Part shown: in pieces, positions 19,799 through 35,108 of the stretch
Numbering within the stretch: position 1 is the stretch's first letter
Layout: each line of letters begins with the position of its first letter
Source of the DNA: Runella defluvii
GTDB taxonomy: Bacteria > Bacteroidota > Bacteroidia > Cytophagales > Spirosomataceae
Length of the DNA stretch: 64,000 nt
Direction: 5' to 3'
Assembly (NCBI RefSeq): GCF_014195535.1
Contig: NZ_JACIBY010000004.1
Coordinates: forward strand, 409,945 to 473,944
Translations under genes and position numbers: made by a program
Notes under the pieces: generated by a model
What the model saw: the letters and a program-made list of their open reading frames with translations, nothing else
Databases searched by the model: none
Told to the model about the DNA's origin: nothing

Positions 19799-19806
19799 TG
19801 AGTGGG

Positions 19807-19961
19807 GTGGTCTGACTATCGTCTCGGGGCGGTCTGACTATCGTCTGACCACCGTCTCGGTCAGACGACAGTCAGACCGCATGAGTAGTTTCTTGCAAAT
19901 CGGGGTGGCCTGACTATCGTTTGACCCCGTCTCAGTCAGACCGCATGAGTAGTTGAGAAAG
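19807..19961. repeat. GTCTGAC-type palindromic repeat cluster, locus A
   Basis: The stretch contains several copies of GGTCTGACTATCGTCT. A 20-bp core GGTCTGACTATCGTCTGACC (19831-19850) and its near-exact inverse (19859-19878) could form a hairpin with an 8-nt loop. A second segment repeats GTCAGACCGCATGAGTAGTT (19871-19890 and 19935-19954). The same core occurs at 55847-56059. It lies between the membrane module and the Crp-like gene, so a terminator or mRNA-stability role is possible. Confidence 0.85.
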
Positions 19962-20062: not shown

Positions 20063-20698
20063 ATGCAACTAGACATAGAATTTCTTCACTCCCGTTTTAA
20101 CGGTTTGTTTGAGCTAAACTTGCTCAAAGAATTAGGGCAAGTAGGCACCTACATGGAAATTGAAGAAGGGCACGTACTGATGCGCCCAGGGGCTTATATT
20201 CGTAGTGTACCCATTATTTTGAGCGGCTCTATCAAAATCTTGCGCTCCGATACCGACGGTCGAGAGGCATTACTATATTATTTAGGAGGGATGGATTCGT
20301 GTGCTATGTCATTGACGTGCTGCCTGAACCGCCGTAAAAGTGAAATCACCGCCGTAGCGGAAGAAAAAACAAAACTAATTTCTGTTCCCGTCGAAAAAGT
20401 CGAAGAATGGGTGTCGAAATACTCTTCGTGGAAACAATTTGTGTTTGCCACTTACCAAAAACGATTCGACGATTTGTTGGGTGCCATCGACCAAATTGCC
20501 TTCCGAAAACTTGATGAACGTCTTTTGAGCTTGTTGCAACGCAAATCAAAACAATGCGGATGCAGCGTATTTACGGTAACGCACGAAGAAATTGCGGGCG
20601 AATTGGCCACATCGCGCGAAGTAATTTCACGTTTGCTCAAACAACTCGAAAAACTCGGTCGCGTCAAGCTCTCACGAAATAAAATTGAATTAATGTAA
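20063..20698 (+). CDS. Crp/Fnr family transcriptional regulator of the sulfur island
   Basis: About 211 residues. The N-terminal cyclic-nucleotide-binding fold runs to ~residue 115, with GHVLMRPGAYIRSVPIILSGSIKI. It carries a cysteine cluster Cys80, Cys86, Cys87 (DSCAMSLTCCLNRR) in place of a normal cAMP pocket motif, and Cys165 and Cys167 just before the C-terminal helix-turn-helix. In the recognition helix (TSREVISRLLKQLE) Arg185, Glu186 and Arg190 match the Crp residues that contact GTGA. Five GTGAY-N4-GTYAC palindromes stand before nearby sulfur genes, so it is the likely regulator; the cysteines may sense redox or persulfide. Start at the ATG at 20063. Confidence 0.93.
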   Translation: MQLDIEFLHSRFNGLFELNLLKELGQVGTYMEIEEGHVLMRPGAYIRSVPIILSGSIKILRSDTDGREALLYYLGGMDSCAMSLTCCLNRRKSEITAVAEEKTKLISVPVEKVEEWVSKYSSWKQFVFATYQKRFDDLLGAIDQIAFRKLDERLLSLLQRKSKQCGCSVFTVTHEEIAGELATSREVISRLLKQLEKLGRVKLSRNKIELM

Positions 20699-20712: not shown

Positions 20713-20756
20713 GTGATAATTATCACTTACTGCCCGTAAGCGTAGCTCTACTTTTG
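20713..20756 (+). promoter_or_regulatory. Crp-like operator and promoter of the TauE/SafE gene (site 1)
   Basis: Perfect 14-bp palindrome GTGATAATTATCAC at 20713-20726, and a TACTTTTG -7 box at 20749-20756. The palindrome centre (20719.5) is 29.5 bp upstream of the first base of the -7 box, which puts the regulator near -41.5 as in class II Crp activation. The gene starts at 20785. Confidence 0.75.
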
Positions 20757-20784
20757 CAGCATCATTCAATCCTTCTGCAAGCGT

Positions 20785-21591
20785 ATGAGCACGTTAGAAA
20801 TTTTCGGTTTTGGAGCCTCTATTTTGATTGGCGTTAGCCTTGGCCTCATTGGTGGCGGTGGTAGTATTCTTACCCTGCCTGTTTTAGTGTATCTTCTTCA
20901 TCTTAACCCAGTTACCTCAACGGCCTATTCGCTTTTTATTGTGGGTTCTACGTCGTTGGTTGGTTCGTTTACCTACATGCGTAAGGAGTTGGTTAACTAC
21001 CAAGCGGCGATTGTTTTTGCGATTCCGTCGTTTGTTGCGGTCTATCTTACGCGGAAGTATTTGGTGCCTTCGATTCCAAGCTCATTGTTTACGGTAGGCG
21101 GCTTTGAATTTACCAAAAATGTCGCCATCATGGTCTTTTTTGCGCTTGTGATGTTGGCTGCTTCTTATTCTATGATTAAAGATAAAAAAGAAGCCAAAGG
21201 AAATGATTCAGAGGAGTTGAAATTCAATTACCCCTTGATTGCCCTTGAAGGCGGTGTGGTAGGGATTTTGACGGGAATTGTCGGAGCGGGTGGTGGTTTC
21301 TTAATTATCCCTGCTTTGGTGTTATTGGCACGCTTACCGATGAAAATGGCCGTGGGGACGTCGTTGCTCATCATTGCGGCAAAATCACTTATTGGTTTTG
21401 TTGGAGATATGTCCAACATGCAAGTGGATTGGCCGTTTTTGCTCGAATTTACCGCTTTGTCGGTGGTGGGTATCTTTGTCGGGACCTACATGTCAAAATA
21501 CATTCCTGGCGAGAAACTTAAAAAGTCCTTTGGTTGGTTTGTATTGGTAATGGGTGTGTATATCATTGCTAAAGAACTCATGTTCAGTTAA
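20785..21591 (+). CDS. TauE/SafE (TSUP) family permease
   Basis: 268 residues with about eight membrane helices in two halves. Each half carries a glycine-rich motif: GVSLGLIGGGGSILTLPVLV near residue 16 and GILTGIVGAGGGFLIIPALV near residue 160. TSUP permeases export or import sulfite, sulfonates, thiosulfate and related anions. Placed between the regulator and persulfide dioxygenase, it most likely moves sulfite or another oxidised sulfur product, but this is inferred from context. It has its own Crp-like operator. Confidence 0.9.
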   Translation: MSTLEIFGFGASILIGVSLGLIGGGGSILTLPVLVYLLHLNPVTSTAYSLFIVGSTSLVGSFTYMRKELVNYQAAIVFAIPSFVAVYLTRKYLVPSIPSSLFTVGGFEFTKNVAIMVFFALVMLAASYSMIKDKKEAKGNDSEELKFNYPLIALEGGVVGILTGIVGAGGGFLIIPALVLLARLPMKMAVGTSLLIIAAKSLIGFVGDMSNMQVDWPFLLEFTALSVVGIFVGTYMSKYIPGEKLKKSFGWFVLVMGVYIIAKELMFS

Positions 21592-21604
21592 AAAAAAGAC
21601 TTGT

Positions 21605-21648
21605 GTGACCAATGTCACGGTACAAGACGAATAAAAGTTGGAATTTTA
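21605..21648 (+). promoter_or_regulatory. Crp-like operator of the persulfide dioxygenase gene (site 2)
   Basis: Palindrome GTGAC-CAAT-GTCAC at 21605-21618. The position 29.5 bp from its centre (21641-21648) reads GAATTTTA, a weak TAnnTTTG match (A and TTT kept). Gene start at 21679. Confidence 0.65.
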
Positions 21649-21678
21649 CATCACAAACAATAACATTCTCAAAAGCGC

Positions 21679-23097
21679 ATGAAAATCGAACAAATTTATA
21701 CGGGTTGTTTAGCCCAAGGAGCTTATTACATTGAAAGTGAAGGCGAAGTAGCCGTGATTGACCCACTTCGTGAAGTGACGCCGTACATTGAGCGTGCAGC
21801 CAAAGACGGTGCAACCATTAAATACGTTTTTGAAACGCACTTTCACGCCGATTTTGTGTCTGGCCACTTGGACTTGTCTCAAAAAACGGGAGCGCCAATC
21901 GTCTATGGCCCCAATGCCAAAACAGGTTTTGAAGCACACATTGCTACCGATGGCGAAGAGTTTCCACTAGGAAAAGTGAAGTTTAAAGTGTTGCATACGC
22001 CAGGCCACACCATGGAGTCAACGTGTTATTTGTTGATAGATGAAAACGGTCAAGAAAAAGCGTTGTTCAGCGGAGATACCCTTTTCATTGGAGATGTAGG
22101 TCGTCCTGACTTGGCACAAAAATCAGATTTGACCATTAATGACTTAGCAGGTCATTTGTACGAGTCACTTCGCAACAAAGTAATGACCTTACCCGACGAC
22201 GTCGTGGTTTATCCCGCGCACGGTGCAGGCTCAGCTTGTGGTAAAAACATGAGTAAGGAAACAACCGACTTGCTAGGAAACCAGAAGAAGTTCAATTACG
22301 CACTTCGGGCAAATATGACGAAAGAGGAGTTTATTGAAGAAGTAACCAACGGTTTGGCAAAACCACCTCAATACTTCCCTCAAAACGTGAAGATGAACAA
22401 AGAAGGGTACGAAAGTATCGATGTCGTGATGGAGCGTGGTGCGCAGGCATTGAGCGCCGCGGCGTTTGAAGCTGCCGCCAACGAAACGGGCGCGGTGATT
22501 CTCGACACACGCGGTGCCCAAGTGTTCAACAAAGGGTTTATTCCAAATTCTATCAATATTGGTCTTAAAGGTGATTTTGCTCCGTGGGTAGGTGCATTGG
22601 TACCTGACGTGAAGCAAGAAATTTTGCTAGTGACCGAAATAGGCCAAGAAGAAGAAGCCATTTTGCGTTTGGCGCGCGTTGGCTACGATAACGTGATTGG
22701 TTATCTTGAAGGAGGTATCGAAACGTGGGGGGCAGCTGGACAAGAAGTGGACACGATAACGTCGATTACGCCCGATGAACTTGCGGACAAAATGGCGGAG
22801 GAAAAAGTGATGGTCATTGATGTTCGTCGCCCAAGCGAGTTTTCGGCGGAGCACATTGACGGTGCTAAAAGCTTACCCTTGGACTACATCAGTGAGTTAA
22901 TGGCGGAATTTCCAAAAGATCAAACCATGTACATTCACTGTGCGGGTGGGTATCGTTCGATGATTGCCTCGTCTATTCTGAAGTCGCGCGGGTACGACAA
23001 CCTTATTGACATTGCTGGCGGTTTCGCTGCGATTTCAAAATCGGGTCGCTTTACGTTGACCGACTATGTGTGTCCAAGTACGTTGAAGAAGTCGTAA
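21679..23097 (+). CDS. Persulfide dioxygenase-type metallohydrolase fused to two rhodanese domains
   Basis: 472 residues. The N-terminal metallo-beta-lactamase fold has THFHADFVSGH at 53-63 and GHTMEST, FSGDTLFIGDVGRPDL and VVYPAHGAGS, as in ETHE1-like persulfide dioxygenases. A first rhodanese domain (~257-350) has no Cys in its active loop (LLVTEIGQEEE), so it is probably non-catalytic. The second (~365-465) has Cys421 in HCAGGYRS and should be active. Together they would oxidise persulfide to sulfite and move sulfane sulfur. Regulated by its own palindrome; the small gene at 23107 follows after 9 bp. Confidence 0.93.
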   Translation: MKIEQIYTGCLAQGAYYIESEGEVAVIDPLREVTPYIERAAKDGATIKYVFETHFHADFVSGHLDLSQKTGAPIVYGPNAKTGFEAHIATDGEEFPLGKVKFKVLHTPGHTMESTCYLLIDENGQEKALFSGDTLFIGDVGRPDLAQKSDLTINDLAGHLYESLRNKVMTLPDDVVVYPAHGAGSACGKNMSKETTDLLGNQKKFNYALRANMTKEEFIEEVTNGLAKPPQYFPQNVKMNKEGYESIDVVMERGAQALSAAAFEAAANETGAVILDTRGAQVFNKGFIPNSINIGLKGDFAPWVGALVPDVKQEILLVTEIGQEEEAILRLARVGYDNVIGYLEGGIETWGAAGQEVDTITSITPDELADKMAEEKVMVIDVRRPSEFSAEHIDGAKSLPLDYISELMAEFPKDQTMYIHCAGGYRSMIASSILKSRGYDNLIDIAGGFAAISKSGRFTLTDYVCPSTLKKS

Positions 23098-23106
23098 AAA
23101 AATAGG

Positions 23107-23325
23107 ATGAAAAAAACGCTCGATAATTGGCAGCTTTGGCTTATGGCAAGTCTAACCTTGGGACTAGCGCCGTTTCTTCCTGAGCCCCACATTGTGGGCA
23201 AGATTCGTTGGATTCTGGGAGGGGCTGTGGGAATGAAAGCAATAGACTGGTTTGATTTTGTATTGCATGGAACGCCTTGGCTGCTTTTTATCCGAGCATT
23301 GGTGATAAAAATAGCTAGAAAGTAA
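23107..23325 (+). CDS. Small conserved membrane protein
   Basis: 72 residues with two hydrophobic stretches (LWLMASLTLGLAPFLP and WLLFIRALVIKIA) around an amphipathic GKIRWILGGAVGMKAIDWFDF segment. I recall similar ~70-residue proteins beside sulfur metallohydrolases in Bacteroidota, often labelled only as transporter-like. No catalytic motif is visible. Only 9 bp from the upstream stop, so it is translated from the same operon and likely assists sulfur handling at the membrane; that role is inference. Confidence 0.65.
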   Translation: MKKTLDNWQLWLMASLTLGLAPFLPEPHIVGKIRWILGGAVGMKAIDWFDFVLHGTPWLLFIRALVIKIARK

Positions 23326-23349
23326 GGTTTTAGGGAACAATTAGTTTTT

Positions 23350-23395
23350 CCCCAGTATTACTAGCCGCATAGGCAGTAGTACTGGGGTTTTGTGT
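23350..23395 (+). terminator. Terminator after the persulfide dioxygenase operon
   Basis: Inverted repeat CCCCAGTATTACT / AGTAGTACTGGGG (13 bp, one mismatch, 12-nt loop) followed by a T-rich stretch (TTTTGTGTTTT). Confidence 0.82.
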
Positions 23396-23431
23396 TTTGA
23401 GGGATATGCCAATTTGCCAAAGAATAAAAAT

Positions 23432-23445
23432 TGCAAACGTTTGCA
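23432..23445. promoter_or_regulatory. Perfect 14-bp palindrome upstream of susC, LacI-like
   Basis: TGCAAACGTTTGCA with a central AACGTT, typical of LacI/CcpA-type operators. The only LacI gene seen here is 28 kb away, so the cognate regulator is unknown. Confidence 0.5.
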
Positions 23446-23642
23446 TCTTGCGATAGGGCGATGTTGCTTTTCGTATAAAAAATATTATTATATCATTGTG
23501 CCTGATTTAACCAAAGACGACCCTGTGAATACCTACTTTGAACGCACTTCGCCATGCCCGTGTTGGCATGGGTTGACATTGAGCCAGTTGTCATCCATAA
23601 ACCATAATTTAAAGATTTCATAACATCTCAAGGGTAGTCTCA

Positions 23643-23660
23643 GTGGGCAATATTACCCAC
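23643..23660. promoter_or_regulatory. Palindrome at the susC promoter
   Basis: GTGGGCAATATTACCCAC is a perfect 18-bp palindrome. The segment 29.5 bp from its centre (23681-23688) reads GAAGTTTT, a weak -7 match at the same distance as in the other sulfur promoters. The half-sites differ from GTGAY, so it may be a related or distinct operator. Confidence 0.4.
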
Positions 23661-23729
23661 TTTTGCGGCCTCAAATGGGCGAAGTTTTTATTATTATCTT
23701 ATTCAACACTTCAAACAACCCTTTTTTTT

Positions 23730-26700
23730 ATGCAACACTTTTTCGATTCTCCTCCTTTTAAGCTTCTATTCAGCATCCTTATGTTAGGATGTATGGGGCT
23801 TTTTTCTACTCATGTGCAGGCCAACATGCCCGTAGCAGCACCGCGCTCCGTGGCAGACATTACTGTCAAAGGCCGTGTGACGGATGCGGACACCAAAGAG
23901 CCGCTTGTGGGATGTAACGTGGTGGTAAAAGGTACTCAAAAAGGAACCAATACCGACGCAAACGGAAATTTTAGCATTGTGGTCTCGGACGAGAAAGCAG
24001 TGCTTGTCATTGGATTTATTGGCTATGAAAAACAAGAAATTGTCGTAGGAAGCCGCACCAACGTAGAGGTAGCCCTCAAATCGTCGGCGTCGGAACTTTC
24101 GCAAGTGGTGGTAATTGGGTACGGAACTACCACCAAAAAAGACGCAACGGGGGCGCTCAAAACCCTCAAAAGCACTGACTTCAACCGTGGTATTGTCAAC
24201 TCTCCTGAGCAACTTCTCCAAGGCCGTGTGGCAGGGGTAAACGTTACTTCGGCAAGTGGAGAACCAGGTGGTCGTCAGTCGATTACCATCCGTGGGCCTG
24301 GTGGGGTTCGTACGGGAAGTACGCCGTTGTTTGTATTGGATGGTATCCCGCTCGACAACTCAAGCACGGGTGGAGCCACCAATCCCATGAACTTCCTTAA
24401 CCCGCAAGACATCGAAGCCATTGACGTATTGAAAGATGCGTCAGCAACGGCCATCTATGGTGCGCGTGGTGCCAACGGGGTGGTGTTGATTACTACCAAA
24501 AAAGGAAAATCAGGAACCGCCAACATTTCGGTTTCGTCAAACATCGGTGTTTCCAACGTCGCAAGAGCTTTGCCTTTGTTTACTGCCGATGAATTCCGCA
24601 AGCAAGTAGTGGCTGTGGGTGGTACGCTCGATGACCTCAAGGCAAACACTGATTGGCAAAAAGAAATTACGCGTCAGGCCATTACCCAAGACCACAACTT
24701 GTCGTTTGGTGGAGGTACGGACAAACTCACTTACTATGGCTCTGTGGGAGCTCAAAACCAAGAAGGGGTGATGAAAAACAGCTCACTCAAGCGTTATACA
24801 GGCCGTTTTAATGCTTCACAGAAAATGATGGACGGACGCTTGGTGGTGGACATGAACTTGACCGCAAGCCAGACCATCAACAACCGTCCGCCAGTGGAAG
24901 GGGTACTTGGTTCGGCGCTTTCGGCCAATCCAACCTATCCTGTACGGGATGCTAACGGTCAATTGGCACGTTATCAGGCATTCACCAACCCTGTGTTGGC
25001 ACTTGATTTGAACAAAGACATTACGACCATCAACCGTATCGTAGGAAGCATTTCACCTTCGTTCAAAATCTTGAAAAATTTGACGTACAAACTGAACCTT
25101 GGGGTGGACAACTCAAGCTCTACGCGTGACGTACAGGTGTTCCCAAGCACAGTGCCGCAGCAAGATGGTCGTTTGGAAGCAACTTACTTGGACAACCGCA
25201 ACGTGTTGGTCGAGAACTATTTTACATTTACTGAAAGCTTCGGCGACCACAGCATCAATGCTTTGGCGGGTCACTCTTACCAGAAATTTTCGTTGGCGGG
25301 ACGCAACTGGAGCATTAACAAATTTGCAGTTTCTCCGATTGAACCAGCCAATAACCCAAGCTTAGGTCAAGAATTGACGTTGGCGACCAACCGCCCAGGT
25401 GGTTTTGCGGTCATCAATGAGTTGCAGTCGTTTTTCTCTCGTTTGAATTATACCTTCAAAGACCGCTACTTATTTACTGCGACCGTGCGTGCCGATGGGT
25501 CAAGTAAATTTGGAGCCAATAACAAATACGGGATATTCCCGTCGTTCTCAGCAGGATGGCGCTTGTCAGAAGAGTCGTTTATGCAGTCAGGGCCTTTCAC
25601 CGATTTGAAACTTCGTGCAGGTTGGGGACAAACGGGTAACCAAGAGATTCCGTCGAAAATTACTCAAGCGCTCTTTACTTCAAGTGCTTCGGCTACAACA
25701 AGTTATCCGTTGGATGCCTCGACAAGCTATCCCGCAGGAACAACTTTCGTTCGCCTAGCCAATCCAGACATTCAGTGGGAATTATCTTCTCAAATGGACT
25801 TAGGGCTTGATTTTGGTTTGTTCAAAGGTGCATTGACGGGTTCAGTTGACTATTTCCGTAAGGTATCGAGCAAAATTTTGTTGGAAGTTATCCCTGCTGA
25901 CCCTATTCAGCCTGCTTCGACTTACTGGACAAACGTTCCTGACATGACCATCACCAACCAAGGAGTTGAGCTAGATATGAACTATCGCCACATTGCCCAA
26001 AGTGGTCTGCGTTTCGACATTGGTGGTAACATTACCTTTATCAAAAACGTAGTAAACAACTCTCCTTATACCGTGATTACTTCAGGCTCGGCAACAGGGC
26101 CAGGGTTGACATCTGCTACCGTGAACGGTTATGTAAATGGACAGCCGATTGGTACGTTCTACTTGCGTCAGTACATCGGAATTGATGATAAAGGCGTGAG
26201 CAAATACGCTGATATCGACGGTGATGGTACAGGTGGTACCGACAAAGACCGTATCGCAGCAGGTAGCGCACTGCCAACGCGTCAGTTTAACATCAACGCC
26301 AGTATCGCTTACAAAGGCTTTGATTTAGGCGCGAACTTTAACGGGGTGTCAGGGAATAAAATCTACGACAACACGGCAAACGCGTATTTTTACAAAGCAC
26401 GTTTGGTTAAAAACTTGAACGGTATTGCAGAATCGGCAGGCGAACCCAACGAATCTATCAACAACGCCGCGCCAGTTTCGACGCGATTCTTGAAAGATGG
26501 TTCGTTTTTCCGTCTTAACAACCTGACGTTGGGCTATAACCTCGACACCAAGAAAATCGGAATCAACAACTGGATTTCGGCGGCGAGATTCTCAATTACT
26601 GGTCAGAACTTGTGGCTCATTACGAAATACAATGGCTACGATCCAGAAGTAAATACCGATCGTACGGTGAATGGTATTTCGTCGTTTGGTATTGACTATT

Positions 26701-26753
26701 TGAGCTATCCAAAAGCCCGTTCGTTTATTTTTAGCCTGAATTTAACTTTCTAA
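23730..26753 (+). CDS. SusC/RagA family TonB-linked outer membrane protein
   Basis: About 1007 residues. A signal region is followed by a carboxypeptidase-like domain (VKGRVTDADTKEPLVGCNVV to ~residue 115), a short TonB-box-like stretch, the plug (QLLQGRVAGVNVTS, IEAIDVLKDASATAIYGARG) and a 22-strand barrel ending in SFIFSLNLTF. SusC proteins import large or scarce ligands through the outer membrane with energy from TonB. The partner susD begins 4 bp downstream. The ligand is unknown; the position inside the sulfur island hints at a sulfur-containing substrate. The ATG at 23730 fits a signal peptide; an upstream GTG lies within the palindrome. Confidence 0.95.
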   Translation: MQHFFDSPPFKLLFSILMLGCMGLFSTHVQANMPVAAPRSVADITVKGRVTDADTKEPLVGCNVVVKGTQKGTNTDANGNFSIVVSDEKAVLVIGFIGYEKQEIVVGSRTNVEVALKSSASELSQVVVIGYGTTTKKDATGALKTLKSTDFNRGIVNSPEQLLQGRVAGVNVTSASGEPGGRQSITIRGPGGVRTGSTPLFVLDGIPLDNSSTGGATNPMNFLNPQDIEAIDVLKDASATAIYGARGANGVVLITTKKGKSGTANISVSSNIGVSNVARALPLFTADEFRKQVVAVGGTLDDLKANTDWQKEITRQAITQDHNLSFGGGTDKLTYYGSVGAQNQEGVMKNSSLKRYTGRFNASQKMMDGRLVVDMNLTASQTINNRPPVEGVLGSALSANPTYPVRDANGQLARYQAFTNPVLALDLNKDITTINRIVGSISPSFKILKNLTYKLNLGVDNSSSTRDVQVFPSTVPQQDGRLEATYLDNRNVLVENYFTFTESFGDHSINALAGHSYQKFSLAGRNWSINKFAVSPIEPANNPSLGQELTLATNRPGGFAVINELQSFFSRLNYTFKDRYLFTATVRADGSSKFGANNKYGIFPSFSAGWRLSEESFMQSGPFTDLKLRAGWGQTGNQEIPSKITQALFTSSASATTSYPLDASTSYPAGTTFVRLANPDIQWELSSQMDLGLDFGLFKGALTGSVDYFRKVSSKILLEVIPADPIQPASTYWTNVPDMTITNQGVELDMNYRHIAQSGLRFDIGGNITFIKNVVNNSPYTVITSGSATGPGLTSATVNGYVNGQPIGTFYLRQYIGIDDKGVSKYADIDGDGTGGTDKDRIAAGSALPTRQFNINASIAYKGFDLGANFNGVSGNKIYDNTANAYFYKARLVKNLNGIAESAGEPNESINNAAPVSTRFLKDGSFFRLNNLTLGYNLDTKKIGINNWISAARFSITGQNLWLITKYNGYDPEVNTDRTVNGISSFGIDYLSYPKARSFIFSLNLTF

Positions 26754-26757
26754 GAAC

Positions 26758-28437
26758 ATGAAAAAAATACTCATCATATCCTTCATTTCTTGTGCGCTTT
26801 TAACCCTCAACAGTTGTACTGATTTGGTTGAAAAAGTACTGGATGAATCATCGGCATCGGGCTTGACCGACAAGCAAGCGGCCGACGGTAGCCTTGCCCC
26901 TGTGTACGCACAATTGCCCAATATTTTCTTGCATACCAACTACTTCGCCATCCAAGAAATTTCTTCGGACGAGGCCATTTTACCTTACCGAGGTGGTACC
27001 GACTGGGGTGATAATGGAATTTATTTGGCCATGCACCAACACACATATACCAGCACCGACCCCAACATAAGAAACACTTGGTTGCTACTTACGCAGGGGA
27101 TTTCGCGCGCGGTGACGGCCATGAGTGCGTTGCCAAATATCAACGACACCAACGCCAAGACCTACATCGCCGAAGCCCGTGGGATGCGTGCTTACTACAA
27201 TTTGTTGTTGTTGGATTTGTTTGGATTGGTTTTCTCAAAAGAAGATCCTAATGGCCTTTCGGTGATTTTGCGCGGAGAGCAAGCGGTTGAGTACTTGAAA
27301 GCCGAATTTTTGGCCGTTGAACCGAGTTTGTTGACAACCGTTGGGCCTGGTCGCCTTACCAAAGGGGCTGTATGGGGGTTGTTGGCACGTTTGCACCTCA
27401 ACGCCGCCGTCTATCGTGATCGCTATGCTAACAGCTTCCAGTTTAAACCTGAGGACATGGACAAAGTGGTGGAATACACCGATAAAATCATCAACTCAGG
27501 TCAGTATAGTTTGTCGGCCGATTATTTCTCAATGTTTAACTCCGATAACAATAGTAACAAAGAGTTGATTTTTGTTGGAGAACAACGTGCTGAACTCAAC
27601 GGCCACAACCGTATGGCGTATTTCTCGTTGTCGGGTGACCAGTTCCCGTTGCCTGCTTTTCCTGCGGCAAACGGAACCGACGGCCCTGCCATCACTCCAG
27701 ATTTTTATCAATCGTGGGTTCAAGCAAACGACGGAAAAGATCCTGCGGGTATTGACCCTCGTTTCTTTAAACAAAACTGGACGATGCCTGCTGACTCGTG
27801 TATTGCAGCTGATAAGTTTGAAATGAACCGTGGAATTTTGCGCGGAACGCAGTACGGTTTAATCCGTGTCAATGGTGCTTTTGTACGTTGTGGAAACAAC
27901 TATAAAGTAGGAAAACTTTTCAACGTAACGCGTAACCGCCCAACCTTGGCCGTGAACTTTACGGAACAAGTAAACTTTACCGTGGTGGGTAGCGATTACA
28001 ACACAGGTTATCGCGTGTTGAAGTATGAATTTAGCAAAAAATCATCATCTGGTCGTAACCTCGGCGATGCTGACCTCGTGATTTTTCGCTTGGCAGATGC
28101 GTATTTGATGCGTGCTGAAGCCAAACTTCGCAAGAGCAACGATGCCGCTGGGGCTTTGGCAGATGTGAATACGGTACGCGCTGCGCGCAAAGCAGTAGGT
28201 ACGCCTGCACCAGCTTTGACCAGCATGACCCTCGACTTGCTTTTCCGTGAACGTGGGTTTGAGTTTTATTGGGAAGCCCAACGCCGTACGGACATGATTC
28301 GTTTCGGTAAATACGAAGGAACTTGGACTGAGAAGACCAACAATGATCCGAAAAAACGTATTTTCCCGATTCCTCAAACGGCCATCGACGGAGCGTCGAA
28401 CCTAGTAGGTTATCTTAAACAAAACGATAGCTACTAA
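26758..28437 (+). CDS. SusD/RagB family ligand-binding lipoprotein
   Basis: 559 residues. The lipoprotein signal has LNSC near residue 20, then the SusD N-terminal part (GLTDKQAADGSLAPVYAQL) and TPR-like helices. The C-terminal SusD segment includes LADAYLMRAEAKLRKSN, LLFRERGFEFYWEAQRRTDMIRFGKYEG and RIFPIPQTAID. It forms the lid over the SusC barrel and binds the ligand at the cell surface. Tightly spaced after susC and followed by a terminator, so the two make an operon without further enzymes. Confidence 0.94.
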   Translation: MKKILIISFISCALLTLNSCTDLVEKVLDESSASGLTDKQAADGSLAPVYAQLPNIFLHTNYFAIQEISSDEAILPYRGGTDWGDNGIYLAMHQHTYTSTDPNIRNTWLLLTQGISRAVTAMSALPNINDTNAKTYIAEARGMRAYYNLLLLDLFGLVFSKEDPNGLSVILRGEQAVEYLKAEFLAVEPSLLTTVGPGRLTKGAVWGLLARLHLNAAVYRDRYANSFQFKPEDMDKVVEYTDKIINSGQYSLSADYFSMFNSDNNSNKELIFVGEQRAELNGHNRMAYFSLSGDQFPLPAFPAANGTDGPAITPDFYQSWVQANDGKDPAGIDPRFFKQNWTMPADSCIAADKFEMNRGILRGTQYGLIRVNGAFVRCGNNYKVGKLFNVTRNRPTLAVNFTEQVNFTVVGSDYNTGYRVLKYEFSKKSSSGRNLGDADLVIFRLADAYLMRAEAKLRKSNDAAGALADVNTVRAARKAVGTPAPALTSMTLDLLFRERGFEFYWEAQRRTDMIRFGKYEGTWTEKTNNDPKKRIFPIPQTAIDGASNLVGYLKQNDSY

Positions 28438-28464
28438 TAAATAACAAGCAAATCACTATTTTAG

Positions 28465-28498
28465 AAGGTGGTCTCTCTAGCAGAGGCCACCTTTTTTT
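28465..28498 (+). terminator. Terminator after susD
   Basis: Stem AAGGTGG(T)CTCT / AGAG(G)CCACCTT with a 5-nt loop followed by a T-run. Confidence 0.85.
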
Positions 28499-28505
28499 GT
28501 TGACT

Positions 28506-28549
28506 GTGACAAATGTTACATTTCAATGAAAAAATTATATAGAATTTAG
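28506..28549 (+). promoter_or_regulatory. Crp-like operator of the cytochrome/DsrE/SoxB operon (site 3)
   Basis: GTGAC-AAAT-GTTAC at 28506-28519. At the standard distance the -7 region reads GAATTTAG (28542-28549), a weak match, with a TAGAATTT starting two bases earlier. The gene starts at 28579. Confidence 0.6.
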
Positions 28550-28578
28550 CGTCCTCGATTACAACCTCATTCGCCCGT

Positions 28579-29625
28579 ATGAAATTACTTAACGTTGTGC
28601 GCGTTCTTACCGTGCTAATTATCGCTGTCGCTTTGTATGCGGTAGGTCTTATTGGCTCGTACATTTTGGGCGCGTCAGATTGGCTAAAAAATTATACGGC
28701 CTCCTCCGCAACGGCAGATACCACCGCCGTTGTTCCTTATGATACCAACTTCCACGCGCTTTGGACACAGCCTGCCGATTGGCGTTTGGCAAAACTCGCA
28801 CCCGAGCAGCGTCTCAAAATCGACTACGGCCGTGAGTTGATTGCGCACACCGCCGAATACCTTGGGCCTAAAGGAAAAGTAAAAGCAAACTCCAACGGAA
28901 TGAATTGCCAAAACTGCCACCTCAACGCGGGTACTCAGCCTTGGGGCAATAATTACTTTGCGGTACAAGCCAATTATCCCAAATTCCGTGAACGCTCAGG
29001 GACGGTAGAAAACCAAATAAAACGAGTAAACGATTGCTTTGAACGTAGCCTTAACGGAAAAGCCCTCGATTCGACTAGCCGCGAAATGCAGGCAATTTTG
29101 GCCTATATCAAATGGATTGGAGGCGATGTCCCTAAAAAATATACCCCGCGTGGTTCGGGTATTTACAAACTCAAACTAATGAAACGTGCCGCCGACCCCG
29201 ATAAAGGAAGAGTTGTTTATGAACAAAAATGCCAAAGCTGCCACCAAGCTAATGGTGAGGGGGTGATGGCCGAAGGCGGGCGTACCTACACTTACCCGCC
29301 GCTGTGGGGCGAGCGCAGCTACAACAACGGCGCAGGTTTGTTTCGCCTTTCCAATTTGGCGGGCTATGTAAAATACAATATGCCTTTTGGCGCAACCTAC
29401 GAACGCCCTCAATTATCGGACGAAGAGTCGTGGGACGTGGCGGCTTTTGTCAATTCGATGCCGCGCCCTAGCAAAGATTTGAGCAAAGATTGGCCCAACA
29501 TCGCTGGCAAACCTTTTGACCATCCTTTTGGTCCTTATGCTGACCCATTTTCGGAACAGCAACACAAATACGGCCCCTTCAAACCCATCAAAGAATGGAA
29601 GGAAAAACACAAGAAAAAATCGTAA
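28579..29625 (+). CDS. TsdA-like dihaem cytochrome c, membrane-anchored
   Basis: 348 residues. One N-terminal membrane helix (about 6-30) anchors a periplasmic part with two haem c motifs: C110QNCH at the first and C218QSCH at the second. The segment HLNAGTQPWGNNYF and the VNDCFERSLNGK segment with Cys153 resemble thiosulfate dehydrogenase TsdA, where a cysteine after the first haem is an axial haem ligand. TsdA enzymes join two thiosulfates into tetrathionate or run the reverse. First gene of an operon with the DsrE-like and SoxB-like genes. Confidence 0.85.
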   Translation: MKLLNVVRVLTVLIIAVALYAVGLIGSYILGASDWLKNYTASSATADTTAVVPYDTNFHALWTQPADWRLAKLAPEQRLKIDYGRELIAHTAEYLGPKGKVKANSNGMNCQNCHLNAGTQPWGNNYFAVQANYPKFRERSGTVENQIKRVNDCFERSLNGKALDSTSREMQAILAYIKWIGGDVPKKYTPRGSGIYKLKLMKRAADPDKGRVVYEQKCQSCHQANGEGVMAEGGRTYTYPPLWGERSYNNGAGLFRLSNLAGYVKYNMPFGATYERPQLSDEESWDVAAFVNSMPRPSKDLSKDWPNIAGKPFDHPFGPYADPFSEQQHKYGPFKPIKEWKEKHKKKS

Positions 29626-29644
29626 ACACTTAACATAGTTCTCA

Positions 29645-30067
29645 ATGAAAAAGAACCTAATTGCCTTATTATTAGTTGTTTTTGCTTTTGTTAACCAAGG
29701 GTTTGCCCAACAAACCGATAAAGTTCACAAAATCGTATTTCACTTAGCTACCAGCGATACGTTGGCGCATAAAGCATTGGCCAAACAAGTGGCTAATGTG
29801 TTGGATTATTGGAAAAATGCCCAAATCGAAGTGGTCGTTCATAATAATGGCATTGGATTTATGAAAAAAAATGAGGCCAAAACTGCCAAAGAAATTGAGG
29901 CATTAAAAGCCCGAGGCGTGACGTTCGCAGTCTGTGAAAATACCTTGAAACAACGTAAAATCGACAAATCGGAGATTTTGCCTGAGGCTGTTTTTGTGCC
30001 CGTTGGTATTGCTGAGTTAGTCCTAAAACAAGAGGATGGCTGGGCGTATATCAAAGCGGGGTTTTAG
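29645..30067 (+). CDS. Exported DsrE/DsrF-like sulfur-carrier family protein
   Basis: 140 residues. A clear signal peptide (MKKNLIALLLVVFAFVNQGFA) precedes a DsrE-like domain with VHKIVFHLATSDTLAHKAL, IEVVVHNNGIGFM and a conserved Cys97 in FAVCENTL, the position that carries sulfur in DsrE/TusD proteins. Cytoplasmic DsrE proteins relay sulfane sulfur; an exported version suggests a periplasmic sulfur carrier, possibly standing in for SoxYZ. It lies 19 bp after the cytochrome gene and 85 bp before the SoxB-like gene. Confidence 0.85.
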   Translation: MKKNLIALLLVVFAFVNQGFAQQTDKVHKIVFHLATSDTLAHKALAKQVANVLDYWKNAQIEVVVHNNGIGFMKKNEAKTAKEIEALKARGVTFAVCENTLKQRKIDKSEILPEAVFVPVGIAELVLKQEDGWAYIKAGF

Positions 30068-30152
30068 GAGTGTAGGCGATTAATAGCAAACAAAAAATAC
30101 CAAGAAATCCCATTAATCGGTGTCTAATCCATTCAATCCGTGTTCAATAATT

Positions 30153-31814
30153 ATGCACTCAAGAAGAAAATTCATTCAAGCAAGCCTATTGGCTGGATTA
30201 GTGACAGAAAGCTCGGAGGTATTGGCCGAGGAAAAGAGCGAAATGAAACCAATTTTGACCCAAAATGGAACCATTACGTTGCTCCAGACCACCGATGTGC
30301 ATTGTCAGCTTCATGCACACGATGAGCTTTTTTGGGAAAATAACCAGCTTGCTTTTCGCAAAGCAGGTGGTTACGCCCATTTAGCGACGGCCATCGACCA
30401 ACTCCGAAAACAAAACCCTGACAATACCTTCGTGATGGATACGGGAGATATGTTTCAAGGAAGTATGCTGTCGGTAAAAACGTCGGGACAAGCATTTGTG
30501 CCTTTGCTCAATGCCATTGGCTATGATTTGTATTTGCCTGGCAACTGGGAAGTGGTGTATTACAAACAAAATATGCAAAAACTGATGGGAGGCTTGATGG
30601 CGCCTAAAGTTTGCGCCAACATGTACCACGATGTAGGCGAGGGGAAAAAGGGAGAACTGGTTTTTCAGCCGTATCATATTATTCATAAACTGGGCGTTAA
30701 AATTGGCTTTTTGGGCTACACCGACCACCTCGTGCCTATCCGCCAGTCGCCGTATTACAGCAAGGGCATTGTTTATACCAAACCTGAAGACAACATCAAG
30801 TACTGGGTAGAGGTATTGAAGCAGCAAGAACAGTGCGATTTTGTGATTGTTCTGGCTCACATTGGGTTGTCGCAGCAAATTGCATTGGCCAACAACCCCG
30901 ATGCCAAAGGAGTGGATTATGTTTTTGGGGCCGATACCCACGAGCGGGTTAGAAAACCAATCCAGTGTGAGTACGCTAAAGTCGTAGAACCTGGGGCATT
31001 TGGGTCATTTGTGGGGCGTCTTGATTTGCAAGTCACCGATGGGAAAATTGTGGGGGAAAAGTACGAACTCATTGAAGTAAACCCCAAAAAATACCCTGCC
31101 AAACCCGAGATTAAAAAATTGGTAGAGGAAATCGAAAAGCCGTATCATGCCCAAATCAATCAAGTGATTGGCTACAGTACCGAGCCGTTGTACCGAAACA
31201 TGGTGGTCGAAAATACGATTGATACCCTCATCGTGGATGCGCTCAAATGGAAAGTTAATACCGAAGTGGTGCTTTCTAATGGCTTTCGGTTTTGTCCACC
31301 GTGCGTGCCCGATGCTTCGGGGAAAGTGGCCATTACGGAAGGCTATCTTTTTGATATGTTGCCCGTCGATGCGACCGTGCGCGTGGGGAAAGCCACGGGG
31401 CAGCAGCTGGTCGATTGGCTCGAAAAAGAACTTCAAAATGTATTTGCCCAAGATGCTACCAAGCGTTTTGGTGGCTGGGTGGTGCGTTTCAAAGGCATGG
31501 AAGTAGAGTTTAAAGCCTTTGAACGCGTGGGGCAACGGGTGAAAAAAGTCATGATTGGCGACAAACCACTTGAATTAGAAAAAACCTATACGATTGCCGC
31601 CTGTGAGCGCGATGGAGACCCTGCGGATATGCTTTGCCGCATGAAAGGCGTGAAAGAAGCTTCGAATACCTCTTATACCCTTCATAGTGTGATGAAAGAA
31701 TATTTAAAAGAGTTTTCGCCCGTGAGTCCTAAGATGCGACAAGCAGCGAAGGTCTTGGATGCTCCCCAAACACTCTTATCGCAGGTTCATGGGGTCGATT
31801 ATCAATTTTTGTAG
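30153..31814 (+). CDS. SoxB-like metallophosphatase-fold thiosulfohydrolase
   Basis: About 553 residues with a twin-arginine-type signal (SRRKFIQASLLAGL). The metallophosphatase domain has Asp48 and His50 (QTTDVHCQLHAH), MDTGDMFQGSM, and GNWEVVYY where ordinary 5'-nucleotidases have GNHE. That Trp substitution is characteristic of SoxB. LAHIGLS and GADTHERV supply further metal ligands. The C-terminal 5'-nucleotidase-like domain ends with ERDGDPADMLCRMKG. SoxB releases sulfate from SoxY-bound thiosulfate, yet no soxXA, soxYZ or soxCD is seen in the window. Start at the ATG at 30153. Confidence 0.82.
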   Translation: MHSRRKFIQASLLAGLVTESSEVLAEEKSEMKPILTQNGTITLLQTTDVHCQLHAHDELFWENNQLAFRKAGGYAHLATAIDQLRKQNPDNTFVMDTGDMFQGSMLSVKTSGQAFVPLLNAIGYDLYLPGNWEVVYYKQNMQKLMGGLMAPKVCANMYHDVGEGKKGELVFQPYHIIHKLGVKIGFLGYTDHLVPIRQSPYYSKGIVYTKPEDNIKYWVEVLKQQEQCDFVIVLAHIGLSQQIALANNPDAKGVDYVFGADTHERVRKPIQCEYAKVVEPGAFGSFVGRLDLQVTDGKIVGEKYELIEVNPKKYPAKPEIKKLVEEIEKPYHAQINQVIGYSTEPLYRNMVVENTIDTLIVDALKWKVNTEVVLSNGFRFCPPCVPDASGKVAITEGYLFDMLPVDATVRVGKATGQQLVDWLEKELQNVFAQDATKRFGGWVVRFKGMEVEFKAFERVGQRVKKVMIGDKPLELEKTYTIAACERDGDPADMLCRMKGVKEASNTSYTLHSVMKEYLKEFSPVSPKMRQAAKVLDAPQTLLSQVHGVDYQFL

Positions 31815-31818
31815 GAGT

Positions 31819-31862
31819 GTAACAATTGTCACGGACTAGGGGCTTGGGCGGCGGTACTTTTG
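31819..31862 (+). promoter_or_regulatory. Crp-like operator and promoter of the porin/YeeE operon (site 4)
   Basis: GTAAC-AATT-GTCAC at 31819-31832 and a TACTTTTG -7 box at 31855-31862. The spacing (centre 29.5 bp from the box) is identical to site 1. It lies immediately after the SoxB-like stop codon; the gene starts at 31884. Confidence 0.75.
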
Positions 31863-31883
31863 TATAAAATTCTCGCAAATTGT

Positions 31884-33299
31884 ATGAAAGTGCCGTTTTT
31901 ACTTCCGTTGATGGGTATTTGGTGGAGTGTTAGTAGTGCAGTGGCGCAGGTACACAGCGACCAGCAGTATAAACACAAAGCAACCCCCGCCGACTCTATC
32001 CAAGACCTGAGTCATTTTTTTGCCAAAGGTCATTTTCACGGACATGCCCGTTCGTATTGGATGGGAACTGACAACGCAAGTGGCTTGAGCAATTTCTACG
32101 CTTGGGGGGTGGGAGCGGGTATTGGCTACGAAACGCCGCGTATTTTAAACCGTTTTCAAGTAGGACTAAGCGGTTTTTTTATGTTCAACTTGATGTCTTC
32201 TGATTTATCAAAACCTGATGCTAAAACGGGGCAAATCAACCGCTACGAAGTGGGATTGTTTGATATTCGCCGCCCCAACGACCACGAAGATTTAGACCGT
32301 TTGGAAGAACTATACCTTCGCTATCATTTTGGGAAAAAATCAAAAGTTACCGTTGGCCGTCAAGTACCCAAAACGCCTTTTATCAATCCTCAAGACGGAC
32401 GAATGCGCCCAACACTGACAGAAGCGGCAGTTGTAGAGCTTAATGAATGGAAAAACACCAAAATTCAACTAGAATACGTGTTCCGAATTTCGCCCCGTTC
32501 GACCGTTGAATGGTTTAGGGTGGGAGAAAGTATGGGAATCTACCCCGTTGGAGTGGGGTTGGATGGAAAACCTTCTACCTATGCCAATAACGTAGAGTCA
32601 AAGGGGGTACTGATTGGTGGAATCACCCAAACCATTGGCCCCGTGACGGTTCAGGCGTGGGATACTTACGTCGAAAATGTCTTCAACACTGCTTTTGTGC
32701 AAGTTGATTGGAAGTCAAAATTTAAAAATAAACACGCTTGGGTGGCAGGCTTTCAAGCCGTTCGCCAGCAATCGGTCGGAAACGGAGGAAATCATGACGT
32801 AACCAAAGCCTATATGGCACCCGATAGCCGTTCGGCGGTTTTTTCGGGTAGGGTGGGGTATCGTTCTCCCAAATACGATGTCAACATAAACGCGACGCGC
32901 ATTACAGCCGAAGGACGCTATTTGATGCCGCGAGAATGGGGAAGAGAACCGTTCTATACATTTATGCCACGCGAACGAAACGAAGGGATGGGTGACGTCA
33001 ATGCGTTTTCGGTCAATGCGTTTTATAAACCTCGAACTCAGCTGAAATGGGAAGTAAGTTGGGGCTACTATAAACTTTCTGATGTAAAAAATGTGTTTTT
33101 AAATAAGTACGGAATGCCAGCTTATACGCAGCTAAATGCAGGCATGAGTTACCAATTTAAAGGCTTTTTTGAAGGACTAGATGCCCAACTTTTGGTTGTT
33201 CGGAAAGATAACATCGGAGCAACGTACGAAAACGACCGCTACGTGTTCAATAAAGTAAACATGTCTCATTTTAATTTTATCCTCAATTATCATTACTAA
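31884..33299 (+). CDS. Outer membrane porin, OprD-like
   Basis: About 471 residues. A signal peptide precedes HFFAKGHFHGHARSYWMGTDNA, and the rest is a beta-strand-rich barrel with VGRQVPKTPFINPQDGRMRPT and a terminal aromatic stretch NFILNYHY. The start and layout resemble OprD-family porins of Bacteroidota. Its own operator and the downstream YeeE/YedE genes 38 bp away indicate a role in admitting a sulfur anion, perhaps thiosulfate or tetrathionate. The ligand is inferred from context. Confidence 0.82.
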   Translation: MKVPFLLPLMGIWWSVSSAVAQVHSDQQYKHKATPADSIQDLSHFFAKGHFHGHARSYWMGTDNASGLSNFYAWGVGAGIGYETPRILNRFQVGLSGFFMFNLMSSDLSKPDAKTGQINRYEVGLFDIRRPNDHEDLDRLEELYLRYHFGKKSKVTVGRQVPKTPFINPQDGRMRPTLTEAAVVELNEWKNTKIQLEYVFRISPRSTVEWFRVGESMGIYPVGVGLDGKPSTYANNVESKGVLIGGITQTIGPVTVQAWDTYVENVFNTAFVQVDWKSKFKNKHAWVAGFQAVRQQSVGNGGNHDVTKAYMAPDSRSAVFSGRVGYRSPKYDVNINATRITAEGRYLMPREWGREPFYTFMPRERNEGMGDVNAFSVNAFYKPRTQLKWEVSWGYYKLSDVKNVFLNKYGMPAYTQLNAGMSYQFKGFFEGLDAQLLVVRKDNIGATYENDRYVFNKVNMSHFNFILNYHY

Positions 33300-33337
33300 T
33301 CATCATTTTTGCACATACGTAACTCATTCTCTGACTT

Positions 33338-33910
33338 ATGGAATTAATCGAACTCATCAAAAAACCGTGGCCGTGGTACGTAGCAGGGCCATTGATTGGC
33401 CTGACAGTGCCAACATTGTTGCTCATTGGCAATAAATCATTCGGGATTTCGTCGTCGTTGCGCCACATCTGTGCGGCGTGTTTTCCTGCTAACATTTCCT
33501 TTTTCAAATACGATTGGAAAAAAGAAATCTGGAATTTGTTCTTCGTAGTGGGAGTATTGGTTGGGGGCTTTTTAGCAACTCAATTTCTCGAAAATCCTGA
33601 TGATTTTGTGATTTCTGAAAAGACAATAGCTGCCCTCAGAGAGCTTGGAATTCAGGATTTTAAAGGCTTGATGCCTGCGGATTTGTTTGCTCTTGAAAAT
33701 ATTTTGTCGCTCAAAGGCTTCATTTTCTTTGTTTTTGGTGGTTTTTTGGTAGGTTTTGGTACGCGTTGGGCAGGTGGCTGTACGTCAGGGCACGCGATTA
33801 TGGGGCTTTCAACCCTGCAACTCCCGTCGTTGATTGCGACTTGTTGTTTCATGATTGGCGGCTTTGTGATGGTACAAGTACTTCTTCCTTTCATTTTCAA
33901 ACTTTTCTAA
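33338..33910 (+). CDS. YeeE/YedE family transporter subunit 1
   Basis: 190 residues with about five membrane helices. The conserved GFGTRWAGGCTSGHAIMG contains Cys148, the motif of YeeE/YedE (DUF395) half-transporters; an additional Cys pair lies in RHICAACFPAN. Relatives such as TsuA and PmpA move thiosulfate or persulfide-type sulfur across the membrane by passing it between cysteines. Paired with the next gene 19 bp downstream, which likely supplies the other half. Confidence 0.88.
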   Translation: MELIELIKKPWPWYVAGPLIGLTVPTLLLIGNKSFGISSSLRHICAACFPANISFFKYDWKKEIWNLFFVVGVLVGGFLATQFLENPDDFVISEKTIAALRELGIQDFKGLMPADLFALENILSLKGFIFFVFGGFLVGFGTRWAGGCTSGHAIMGLSTLQLPSLIATCCFMIGGFVMVQVLLPFIFKLF

Positions 33911-33929
33911 CCTTCAATCAACGAATCTC

Positions 33930-34433
33930 ATGGCAACGAATCAAACAAATACAAATACGGTATCTTTTCCAGAACACTTAGTATGCGATGCGCCCAACGA
34001 CATGGTGAAGCGTGAAAGCACCCTTGGCAACCTCAAGTATTTGGTGGTTGGGGTGATGTTTGGCATTGTGTTCGTCAAAGCCGAAATCATTTCGTGGTTT
34101 CGTATTCAAGAAATGTTCCGTCTTCATAGCTTTCACATGTACGGTGTTATTGGCTCGGCGGTAGTAGTGGGGATGATTTCGGTTTTTCTGATTAAAAAAT
34201 TCAACATCAAAACCCTAGCTGGCGAAACGGTGCAGTTTCACCCGAAGAAATTTATGCGGGGACAAATCTACGGCGGCTTACTCTTTGGCTTAGGCTGGGG
34301 AATCACAGGGGCTTGTCCAGGGCCTTTGTTTGCCCAAATTGGAAGTGGTTATGTGGCAGTGATTGTAACGCTCCTCAGTGCGATTGCAGGAACTTGGACA
34401 TACGGGCTTTTAAAAGACAGATTGCCAAACTAA
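33930..34433 (+). CDS. YeeE/YedE family transporter subunit 2 (DUF6691-like)
   Basis: 167 residues with four membrane helices after a cytoplasmic N terminus. The conserved motif GLGWGITGACPGPLFAQIGSG carries Cys129, again the sulfur-passing type of residue. It complements the preceding subunit, as in two-gene PmpA/PmpB-like sulfur transporters. Separated from the DUF983 gene by 24 bp. Confidence 0.87.
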   Translation: MATNQTNTNTVSFPEHLVCDAPNDMVKRESTLGNLKYLVVGVMFGIVFVKAEIISWFRIQEMFRLHSFHMYGVIGSAVVVGMISVFLIKKFNIKTLAGETVQFHPKKFMRGQIYGGLLFGLGWGITGACPGPLFAQIGSGYVAVIVTLLSAIAGTWTYGLLKDRLPN

Positions 34434-34457
34434 ACGTGTAAACGTGCTGACATTGAC

Positions 34458-34847
34458 ATGCTAAAAGGAACCAAACTATACAGTATTCTCTTCAACAAGT
34501 GCCCACGCTGCCACGAAGGAGACTTTTTTGTTACAAAAACGGCTTACGACCTCAAAAATTTTGACAAAATGCACAAACGTTGCTCTCACTGCGACGAAGA
34601 TTTTGAGCGGGAGCCAGGTTTTTATTTTGGAGCTATGTACACCAGCTACGGGCTTTATGTAGCGACCATCGTGACGTCATTTTTGGGCTATGTTATTTTT
34701 CTTGGAGGAGATGAGCTGCGGCTCCTGGCCTTTTTGATTCCAGGGCTTATTTTGTTGATGCCGCTGTATTTTCGGATAGGGCGGCGCATTTGGATAAATA
34801 TTTTTGTGAAGTACAAATCAAAAAAAGCAGAAGAAAGTATCAATTAA
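34458..34847 (+). CDS. DUF983 family membrane protein
   Basis: 129 residues. Two zinc-ribbon CxxC pairs (KCPRCHEG and RCSHCDED) are followed by an FEREPGFYFGAMYTSYG segment and two membrane helices. This is the DUF983 pattern; function unknown. Close spacing (24 bp) after the YeeE subunits suggests co-transcription, with a strong terminator immediately downstream. Confidence 0.85.
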   Translation: MLKGTKLYSILFNKCPRCHEGDFFVTKTAYDLKNFDKMHKRCSHCDEDFEREPGFYFGAMYTSYGLYVATIVTSFLGYVIFLGGDELRLLAFLIPGLILLMPLYFRIGRRIWINIFVKYKSKKAEESIN

Positions 34848-34849
34848 CC

Positions 34850-34886
34850 AACCTCTCGAAAGTTCAAAACTTTCGAGAGGTTTTTT
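34850..34886 (+). terminator. Terminator after the DUF983 gene
   Basis: Perfect 15-bp stem AACCTCTCGAAAGTT / AACTTTCGAGAGGTT with a 3-nt loop and a T-run, belonging to the CTCGAAAGTT palindrome family seen also at 34995-35028 and, altered, at 36355-36387. Confidence 0.85.
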
Positions 34887-34888
34887 GT

Positions 34889-34980
34889 CGTGCTGAGGGT
34901 TGCTCGCCATACCGTGTTGAGGGTTGCTATATCGTGTTGAGGGTTGCTATATCGTGTTGAGGGTTGCTCACAACCCGAAT
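34889..34980. repeat. GGGTTGCT tandem direct repeats
   Basis: Four copies of CGTGyTGAGGGTTGCT. The units are 24, 20, 20 and 28 bp long, starting at 34889, 34913, 34933 and 34953. The last copy extends into CACAACCCGAAT and matches 41778-41805 in 27 of 28 positions. Confidence 0.88.
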
Positions 34981-34994
34981 AGAGTCGATACTCA

Positions 34995-35028
34995 AACTTC
35001 TCGAAAGTTATAAAACTTTCGAGAAGTT
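34995..35028. repeat. CTCGAAAGTT palindrome before the SQR promoter
   Basis: Perfect 15-bp inverted repeat AACTTCTCGAAAGTT / AACTTTCGAGAAGTT with a 4-nt loop and T-rich sequence downstream. Its close relative is the terminator at 34850. Confidence 0.8.
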
Positions 35029-35064
35029 CTTTTTCTTGAAAAATGAATTAAATTTCTTGCTTGT

Positions 35065-35108
35065 GTGATATTTGTTACAAAGTAAGGCATGGGAAAAGGT
35101 GATTTTTG
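35065..35108 (+). promoter_or_regulatory. Crp-like operator and promoter of the SQR gene (site 5)
   Basis: GTGAT-ATTT-GTTAC at 35065-35078; at the standard distance, GATTTTTG (35101-35108) matches the -7 box in five of six positions. The gene starts at 35138. Confidence 0.7.

Follow-up and report, generated by a model that had tools for sequence, protein, structure and literature searches.

A Crp/Fnr-family protein as probable activator of a sulfide and thiosulfate regulon from class II sites in Runella and many other Bacteroidota

We analysed a stretch of 64,000 nucleotides of Runella defluvii (the window; contig NZ_JACIBY010000004.1 of assembly GCF_014195535.1, positions 409,945 to 473,944), which carries an island of sulfur genes and, with them, the gene of a Crp/Fnr-family regulator. 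The sequence evidence suggests, with a probability of about 0.78, that in many Bacteroidota such a protein is a reactive-sulfur-sensing activator that runs a sulfide/thiosulfate regulon from class II sites. In the proposed mechanism, a dimer of the regulator would bind the palindrome GTRAY-N4-RTYAC centred at -41.5 and, as a class II activator, bring the RNA polymerase of these bacteria to a promoter with a TAnnTTTG box. Its targets in the island would be the genes for a TauE/SafE protein, a dioxygenase-like protein, a SoxA/TsdA-like cytochrome with DsrE and a SoxB-like protein, a porin with YeeE-type transporters, and a protein like sulfide:quinone reductase (SQR); elsewhere in the genome they would include a Tll0287-like haem protein, a thioredoxin and a rhodanese. 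The regulator would respond to persulfide or polysulfide through C80, with C86 and C87, where CRP has its phosphate cassette for cyclic AMP (cAMP). The parts of this proposal are not equally firm: the island protein very probably binds the five sites and likely activates rather than represses, while persulfide or polysulfide as the signal is an even bet.

A sequence-only reading of the window had placed a palindrome upstream of the TauE/SafE, dioxygenase, cytochrome, porin and SQR genes, each with its centre 29.5 bp before a -7 box, and had argued for one regulator working near -41.5. The palindromes were recovered base for base, and so were the boxes it had named (TACTTTTG at two promoters, GATTTTTG at one and the weaker GAATTTTA and GAATTTAG). 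The single regulator is now well supported by a geometry kept in relatives, by sites that precede first genes and by dioxygenase genes that lack sites where the regulator is absent. The regulator gene and the sites are as follows.

20063..20698, plus strand: Crp/Fnr-family regulator gene, 211 amino acids from the ATG at 20063, frame open from the TTG at 20018 (Pfam cNMP_binding, HTH_Crp_2 and Crp; structure model)
20713..20726, plus strand: palindrome GTGATAATTATCAC, 5' of the TauE/SafE gene
20749..20756, plus strand: -7 box TACTTTTG
21605..21618, plus strand: palindrome GTGACCAATGTCAC, 5' of the persulfide dioxygenase-like gene
21641..21648, plus strand: -7 box GAATTTTA, weak, 2 mismatches
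28506..28519, plus strand: palindrome GTGACAAATGTTAC, 5' of the cytochrome gene
28542..28549, plus strand: -7 box GAATTTAG, weak, 2 mismatches
31819..31832, plus strand: palindrome GTAACAATTGTCAC, 5' of the porin gene
31855..31862, plus strand: -7 box TACTTTTG
35065..35078, plus strand: palindrome GTGATATTTGTTAC, 5' of the SQR-like gene
35101..35108, plus strand: -7 box GATTTTTG

In all five promoters the first base of the box lies 36 nt past the first base of the 14-mer palindrome (+36), and the centre-to-box distance is therefore 29.5 bp. The predicted leaders up to the ATG measure 24, 26, 25, 17 and 25 nt, in the order of the promoters. A site centred at -41.5 occupies the position of a class II activator, as for CRP. 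In Flavobacterium johnsoniae promoters the -7 box starts, with its first T, at -12 (PMC6847099), and the box of F. psychrophilum spans -12 to -5 (PMC9723704; articles with such numbers are cited here for parts of their text). With the box at -12 and a spacing of 29.5 bp, the palindrome centre falls at -41.5 relative to the predicted start sites, which is the geometry of a class II promoter. The degenerate search form of the palindrome, GTRAYNNNNRTYAC, matches the window at these five sites only, against a mean of 0.73 in shuffled windows, none of which (0/100) reached five. Among 20,000 random quintets of window positions, none shared one offset (20-60 nt) with equally good boxes.

This geometry is kept in relatives. 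The regulator was searched at E <= 1e-20 in the family, where more distant kin are included, and with a profile at E <= 1e-40 in the phylum. Of 200 family genomes 140 have it, and the profile matches 137 of 395 genomes sampled across the phylum, in 68 of 170 genera, the subgroup without C86 being counted in. We assembled 121 loci (40 from the family, 80 named loci and the window) and dropped 23 with a repeated regulator protein, which left a main set of 98, 97 of them with distinct regulators besides that of the window. Another 20 loci form a more distant family set, and 68 of the 137 matching genomes form a phylum sample (40 with wide flanks, 28 with flanks of ~1.5 kb). The 97 loci contain 408 oriented palindromes, followed at 14-89 nt by 117 TAnnTTTG boxes, and 96 of these 117 are at exactly +36; six others are at +35, one at +37 and 14 are spread over 12 further offsets. 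Used as control in the same loci, the reversed pattern is rarer (82 oriented matches) and has seven boxes, none of them at 35-37. In the more distant family set 6 of 8 boxes are at +36; the phylum sample has 26 boxes, 19 at +36, two at +35 and four at +37. In the aligned sites the terminal G and C of the palindrome never vary, which carries no meaning because the search pattern fixes both bases. In one locus (L224), a palindrome ~50-63 nt 5' of the regulator match has a +36 box in both directions, and may thus be shared by the promoter of the regulator gene and a second, divergent one.

The genes 3' of the sites in relatives encode persulfide dioxygenase-like, YeeE-type, TauE/SafE, porin, cytochrome, DUF983-like and SQR-like proteins and the regulator itself, to which inspection by eye adds rhodaneses, thioredoxin, peroxiredoxin and YgaP-like membrane proteins (family searches were made on ten such genes). 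Sites stand before first genes, not operon-internal ones. In loci with the regulator, they precede TauE in 21/65 cases (weak paralogues included), the first YeeE gene in 35/65, the porin in 9/11, the cytochrome in 8/10, SQR in 4/8, DUF983 in 5/11 and the regulator gene itself in 4/99; none precedes the second YeeE gene (0/64), DsrE (0/11), the SoxB-like gene (0/8), SusC (0/5) or MoeB (0/2). The more distant family set, in which one dioxygenase-like gene is cut by the locus end, has sites at 7/9 dioxygenase-like and 8/10 TauE genes.

The presence of sites also follows that of the regulator. We compared persulfide dioxygenase-like genes (at least 50% identity), 67 near the regulator and those of 15 genomes without it by protein search, drawn (from 20) out of 60 family genomes lacking a match. 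A site lies upstream of 54 of the 67 genes: 38 have a perfect palindrome and at most one box mismatch, four have two box mismatches and 12 have one palindrome mismatch. None was found in the genomes without regulator (0/15), and shuffled background gave 180/20,000 at the same tolerance. Around the 15 control genes, TauE has a site in 1/7 cases and the first YeeE gene in 0/7. A profile search of the control genomes returned only weak matches, in two of them (E 3e-11 and 3e-9).

The regulator belongs to the Crp/Fnr superfamily: it combines a cNMP-binding domain (PF00027, 37.6 bits, cut-off 27.5) with a Crp-type helix-turn-helix (PF13545, 38.2, cut-off 27; PF00325, 21.8, cut-off 21), and its fold agrees. 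These are its sole Pfam matches, and an ArsR-type identity (SqrR/BigR) is not indicated. It scores 39.1 bits with the CRP equivalog NF008732 (cut-off 266) and 19 bits with the FNR model NF008365 (cut-off 228), which makes it neither a cAMP-dependent CRP nor an FNR by these models. With C80 as its first Cys, the window protein lacks an N-terminal Fe-S Cys set of the FNR kind. CRP contacts cAMP through Glu72, Arg82 and Ser83 (PMC11253593); in the alignment Glu72 meets a gap, Ser83 becomes K92 and Arg82 becomes R91, an Arg found there in only 26 of 98 regulators.

In the recognition helix of E. coli CRP, Arg180 reads G2, and Arg185 with Glu181 reads the G4:C4 pair (PMC11253593). Arg180, Arg185 and Glu181 align to R185, R190 and E186 of the island protein, where the sequence-only reading had indeed located Arg185, Glu186 and Arg190, with correct numbering for the 211-residue reading from ATG 20063. 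Its view that these are the Crp residues that read GTGA fits the two arginines, invariant in 98/98 regulators, but residue 186 varies, with Glu in 57 and Val in 41 of the 98, and with Glu in 92 and Val in 94 of all 186 regulators. The base pair read by CRP Glu181 is more commonly A:T in sites that go with Val186 regulators (GTAAC/GTTAC half-sites). Half-sites with G:C amount to 183/272 for Glu and 43/172 for Val overall, that is 126/206 and 38/118 in the main set, 36/40 and 1/4 in the more distant family set, and 21/26 and 4/50 in the phylum sample. E181V-type mutants of CRP reportedly have altered specificity at this base pair. A broader proposal, which we put slightly below even odds, is that a Bacteroidota-wide Crp/Fnr subfamily had its cAMP pocket made into a Cys persulfide sensor and would be the main sulfide/polysulfide/thiosulfate switch in much of the phylum, in two DNA-specificity versions (E186 with GTGAY/RTCAC, V186 with GTAAC/GTTAC) whose helix and sites changed together.

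The Runella genome (7.99 Mb, 50 contigs) has 115 palindromes outside the window. We looked for a box in the flanks of 42, among them every one of the 31 palindromes with A/T at both middle positions. Of the 42, three have a +36 box with one mismatch or none, a further two +36 boxes (2 mismatches) lie within long open frames, and one box is at +39. The three extra promoters fall within 19 kb of contig C1 (854040-872901, loci L206 and L207) and precede the genes for the Tll0287-like haem protein, the thioredoxin and the rhodanese. The five-site regulon first described for the sulfur island is supported, with a wider scope that reaches beyond the island to these promoters.

The cysteines of the candidate sensor are placed at the position of the CRP cAMP phosphate cassette and are highly conserved in the main set (C80 in 98/98, C86 in 96/98, C87 in 95/98). 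In Acinetobacter baumannii, a Crp-like protein is persulfidated, with unknown consequence (PMC7315123). A sister subgroup has a SCIMSFLGG-like stretch, with C80 followed by GG in place of C-x5-C-C (L278, L286-L289, L291, L293, L300, L301 and L305-L310). In four relatives (L254, L257, L260 and L264), sites lie 5' of genes for small CxxC proteins that by eye resemble HMA domains and for TolC-like proteins, which may point to metal handling.

Several observations weigh against the activator reading or narrow it. The palindrome alone is not enriched in the genome (120 places, against 176 for the reversed pattern), so that by itself it predicts nothing and fails as a genome-wide predictor. The island sites are set apart by their density in the window, five sites within 14.4 kb, and by the +36 box. 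Near the regulator, 13 of 67 dioxygenase-like genes have no site, and linkage also differs between the two sets, because the 67 adjoin the regulator and the 15 controls come from anywhere. One genome (L228) has a perfect TauE site yet no detected regulator, which may be missing from an assembly of 320 contigs. Among Val-type sites, 15 of 86 have G:C in both half-sites. The Glu/Val difference, strong in raw counts, goes back to only four changes on the tree: 1-3 of the four independent pairs (mean 2.6) are as expected and none is opposite, the median sign test gives p 0.25, and four pairs are unable to reach significance, for which the sign test requires six or more informative pairs. We have thus not retained the covariation as independent proof. 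C86 is rarer outside the main set, present in 14/20 regulators of the more distant family set and in 45/68 of the phylum sample. Even in the subgroup without it, some sites are upstream of genes for a rhodanese or for an OsmC-like or YgaP-like protein. C80 is thus the one universal Cys, and the idea of a strictly conserved C80-C86 pair as family-wide sensor is weakened. Moreover, Cys conservation was somewhat selected for, because two of the peptide patterns that served to find the 80 named loci include conserved Cys, and the phylum profile was partly built from these loci. Finally, residues 84-87 are modelled at pLDDT (predicted local distance difference test) below 50.

The part of the proposal most exposed to an alternative is the signal. 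That the same protein and sites answer to something else (a metal such as copper, oxygen or redox state, nitric oxide, or a bound small molecule) is possible, at odds well short of even: three close Cys could bind a metal, some sites precede the HMA-like and TolC-like proteins, and the C80-only subgroup exists, but the targets that can be named mostly handle sulfur or persulfide, and the FNR-kind Cys set is missing from the window protein. The direction of control is better constrained. Repression, in which the protein bound at -41.5 would block the polymerase until sulfur releases it, has precedents in SqrR, BigR, SoxR and sHdrR, described as repressors (PMC9774590, PMC12423496). It is nevertheless unlikely here, because a fixed +36 spacing, seen across the 97 loci, is what polymerase contact demands, whereas a repressor would tolerate drift. 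The aligned promoters show no conspicuous -33-like TTTG element between the palindrome and the box, though in F. johnsoniae too this element is weak (PMC6847099).

As to which protein reads the sites, the half-site is the GTGA of Crp with Crp spacing (T1G2T3G4A5, PMC11253593), as one would expect if the bound protein were a Crp of the cAMP type or a different Crp/Fnr paralogue. We consider this very improbable: among the nine HTH_Crp_2 matches of the genome, the island protein alone has both recognition Arg, and none of the other eight has the two together (the comparison covers only paralogues that match this family model). Besides, sites follow the island-type regulator, which itself scores far below the CRP equivalog cut-off. 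Chance palindromes in AT-rich intergenic DNA, to which the lack of genome-wide enrichment might point, are ruled out for practical purposes by the window shuffles, the constant offset with its +36 geometry in relatives, and the regulator-linked dioxygenase sites.

The other genes of the island, with the evidence for their names, are as follows.

20785..21591, plus strand: TauE/SafE membrane protein gene (Pfam TauE, E=3.6e-45)
21679..23097, plus strand: gene for a metallo-beta-lactamase (MBL) fold with two rhodanese stretches, persulfide dioxygenase-like (Pfam Lactamase_B, Rhodanese)
28579..29625, plus strand: SoxA/TsdA-like cytochrome c gene (Pfam SoxA-TsdA_cyt-c, Cytochrom_C)
29645-30067: DsrE gene, after the cytochrome gene, without a site of its own (Pfam DsrE)
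30153-31814: SoxB-like phosphoesterase gene, without a site of its own (Pfam Metallophos; TIGR04486 SoxB 276 bits, below the cut-off of 550)
31884..33299, plus strand: OprD-like porin gene (Pfam OprD)
33338-33910 and 33930-34433: two YeeE/YedE-type sulfur transporter genes, 3' of the porin gene (Pfam Sulf_transp)
34458-34847: DUF983-like gene, 3' of the YeeE genes (look-alike; a relative's protein matched PF06170)
35138..36346, plus strand: SQR-like gene (Pfam Pyr_redox_2; NF049943 SQR_III 239 bits, below the cut-off of 525)

We infer the name persulfide dioxygenase from the MBL plus rhodanese architecture. Between this gene and the cytochrome gene lies a pair that looks like SusC/SusD (a TonB-dependent receptor and its lipoprotein partner, 23643-28437), with no palindrome upstream. 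Short repeat units (GGTCTGACTATCGTC-like and GTCAGACCGCATGAGTAG) occupy 19780-19960, directly 5' of the regulator gene. Scans of the window with Rfam (gathering scores) and for tRNAs were both empty.

Bacterial regulators of sulfide and sulfane sulfur include the ArsR, CstR and FisR types (PMC7315123, PMC9774590, PMC12423496), and other families also occur in the literature. The parts consulted of these three articles and of PMC9723704, PMC6847099 and PMC11253593 contain no Crp/Fnr regulator of Bacteroidota sulfide oxidation, and a word search of PMC9774590 and PMC12423496 did not find "Bacteroid-". A full-text literature search, with most subscription journals outside its scope, likewise found no description of such a regulator. 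If our reading is true, a Crp/Fnr activator fills this gap for sulfur regulation in Bacteroidota, with relatives in over a third of the genomes searched, and offers a worked case of activation at their unusual promoter.

The system resembles E. coli CRP in its fold, its R-E-x-x-x-R recognition motif, its GTGA half-sites with N6 spacing and its centre at -41.5, and differs from it in having a TAnnTTTG promoter in place of a sigma-70 -10 element, and Cys where the cassette contacts are not kept. FNR half-sites read TTGAT. Those of the island are GTRAY, and the island protein, unlike FNR and other Crp/Fnr redox sensors, has its Cys in the cassette region and no N-terminal set. The nearest solved sequence, also the first Foldseek match, is 3dv8 (Crp/Fnr protein EUBREC_1222 of Eubacterium rectale, E 4.6e-31); it has C-x5-C at the same place, but Ile for the third Cys, and its entry title says only putative transcriptional regulator. 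Finally, SqrR, BigR, SoxR and sHdrR of the ArsR family, CstR and FisR do a comparable physiological job and sense by Cys, but they belong to other protein families, and the first four repress (PMC7315123, PMC9774590, PMC12423496), whereas the Crp/Fnr protein of the island likely activates.

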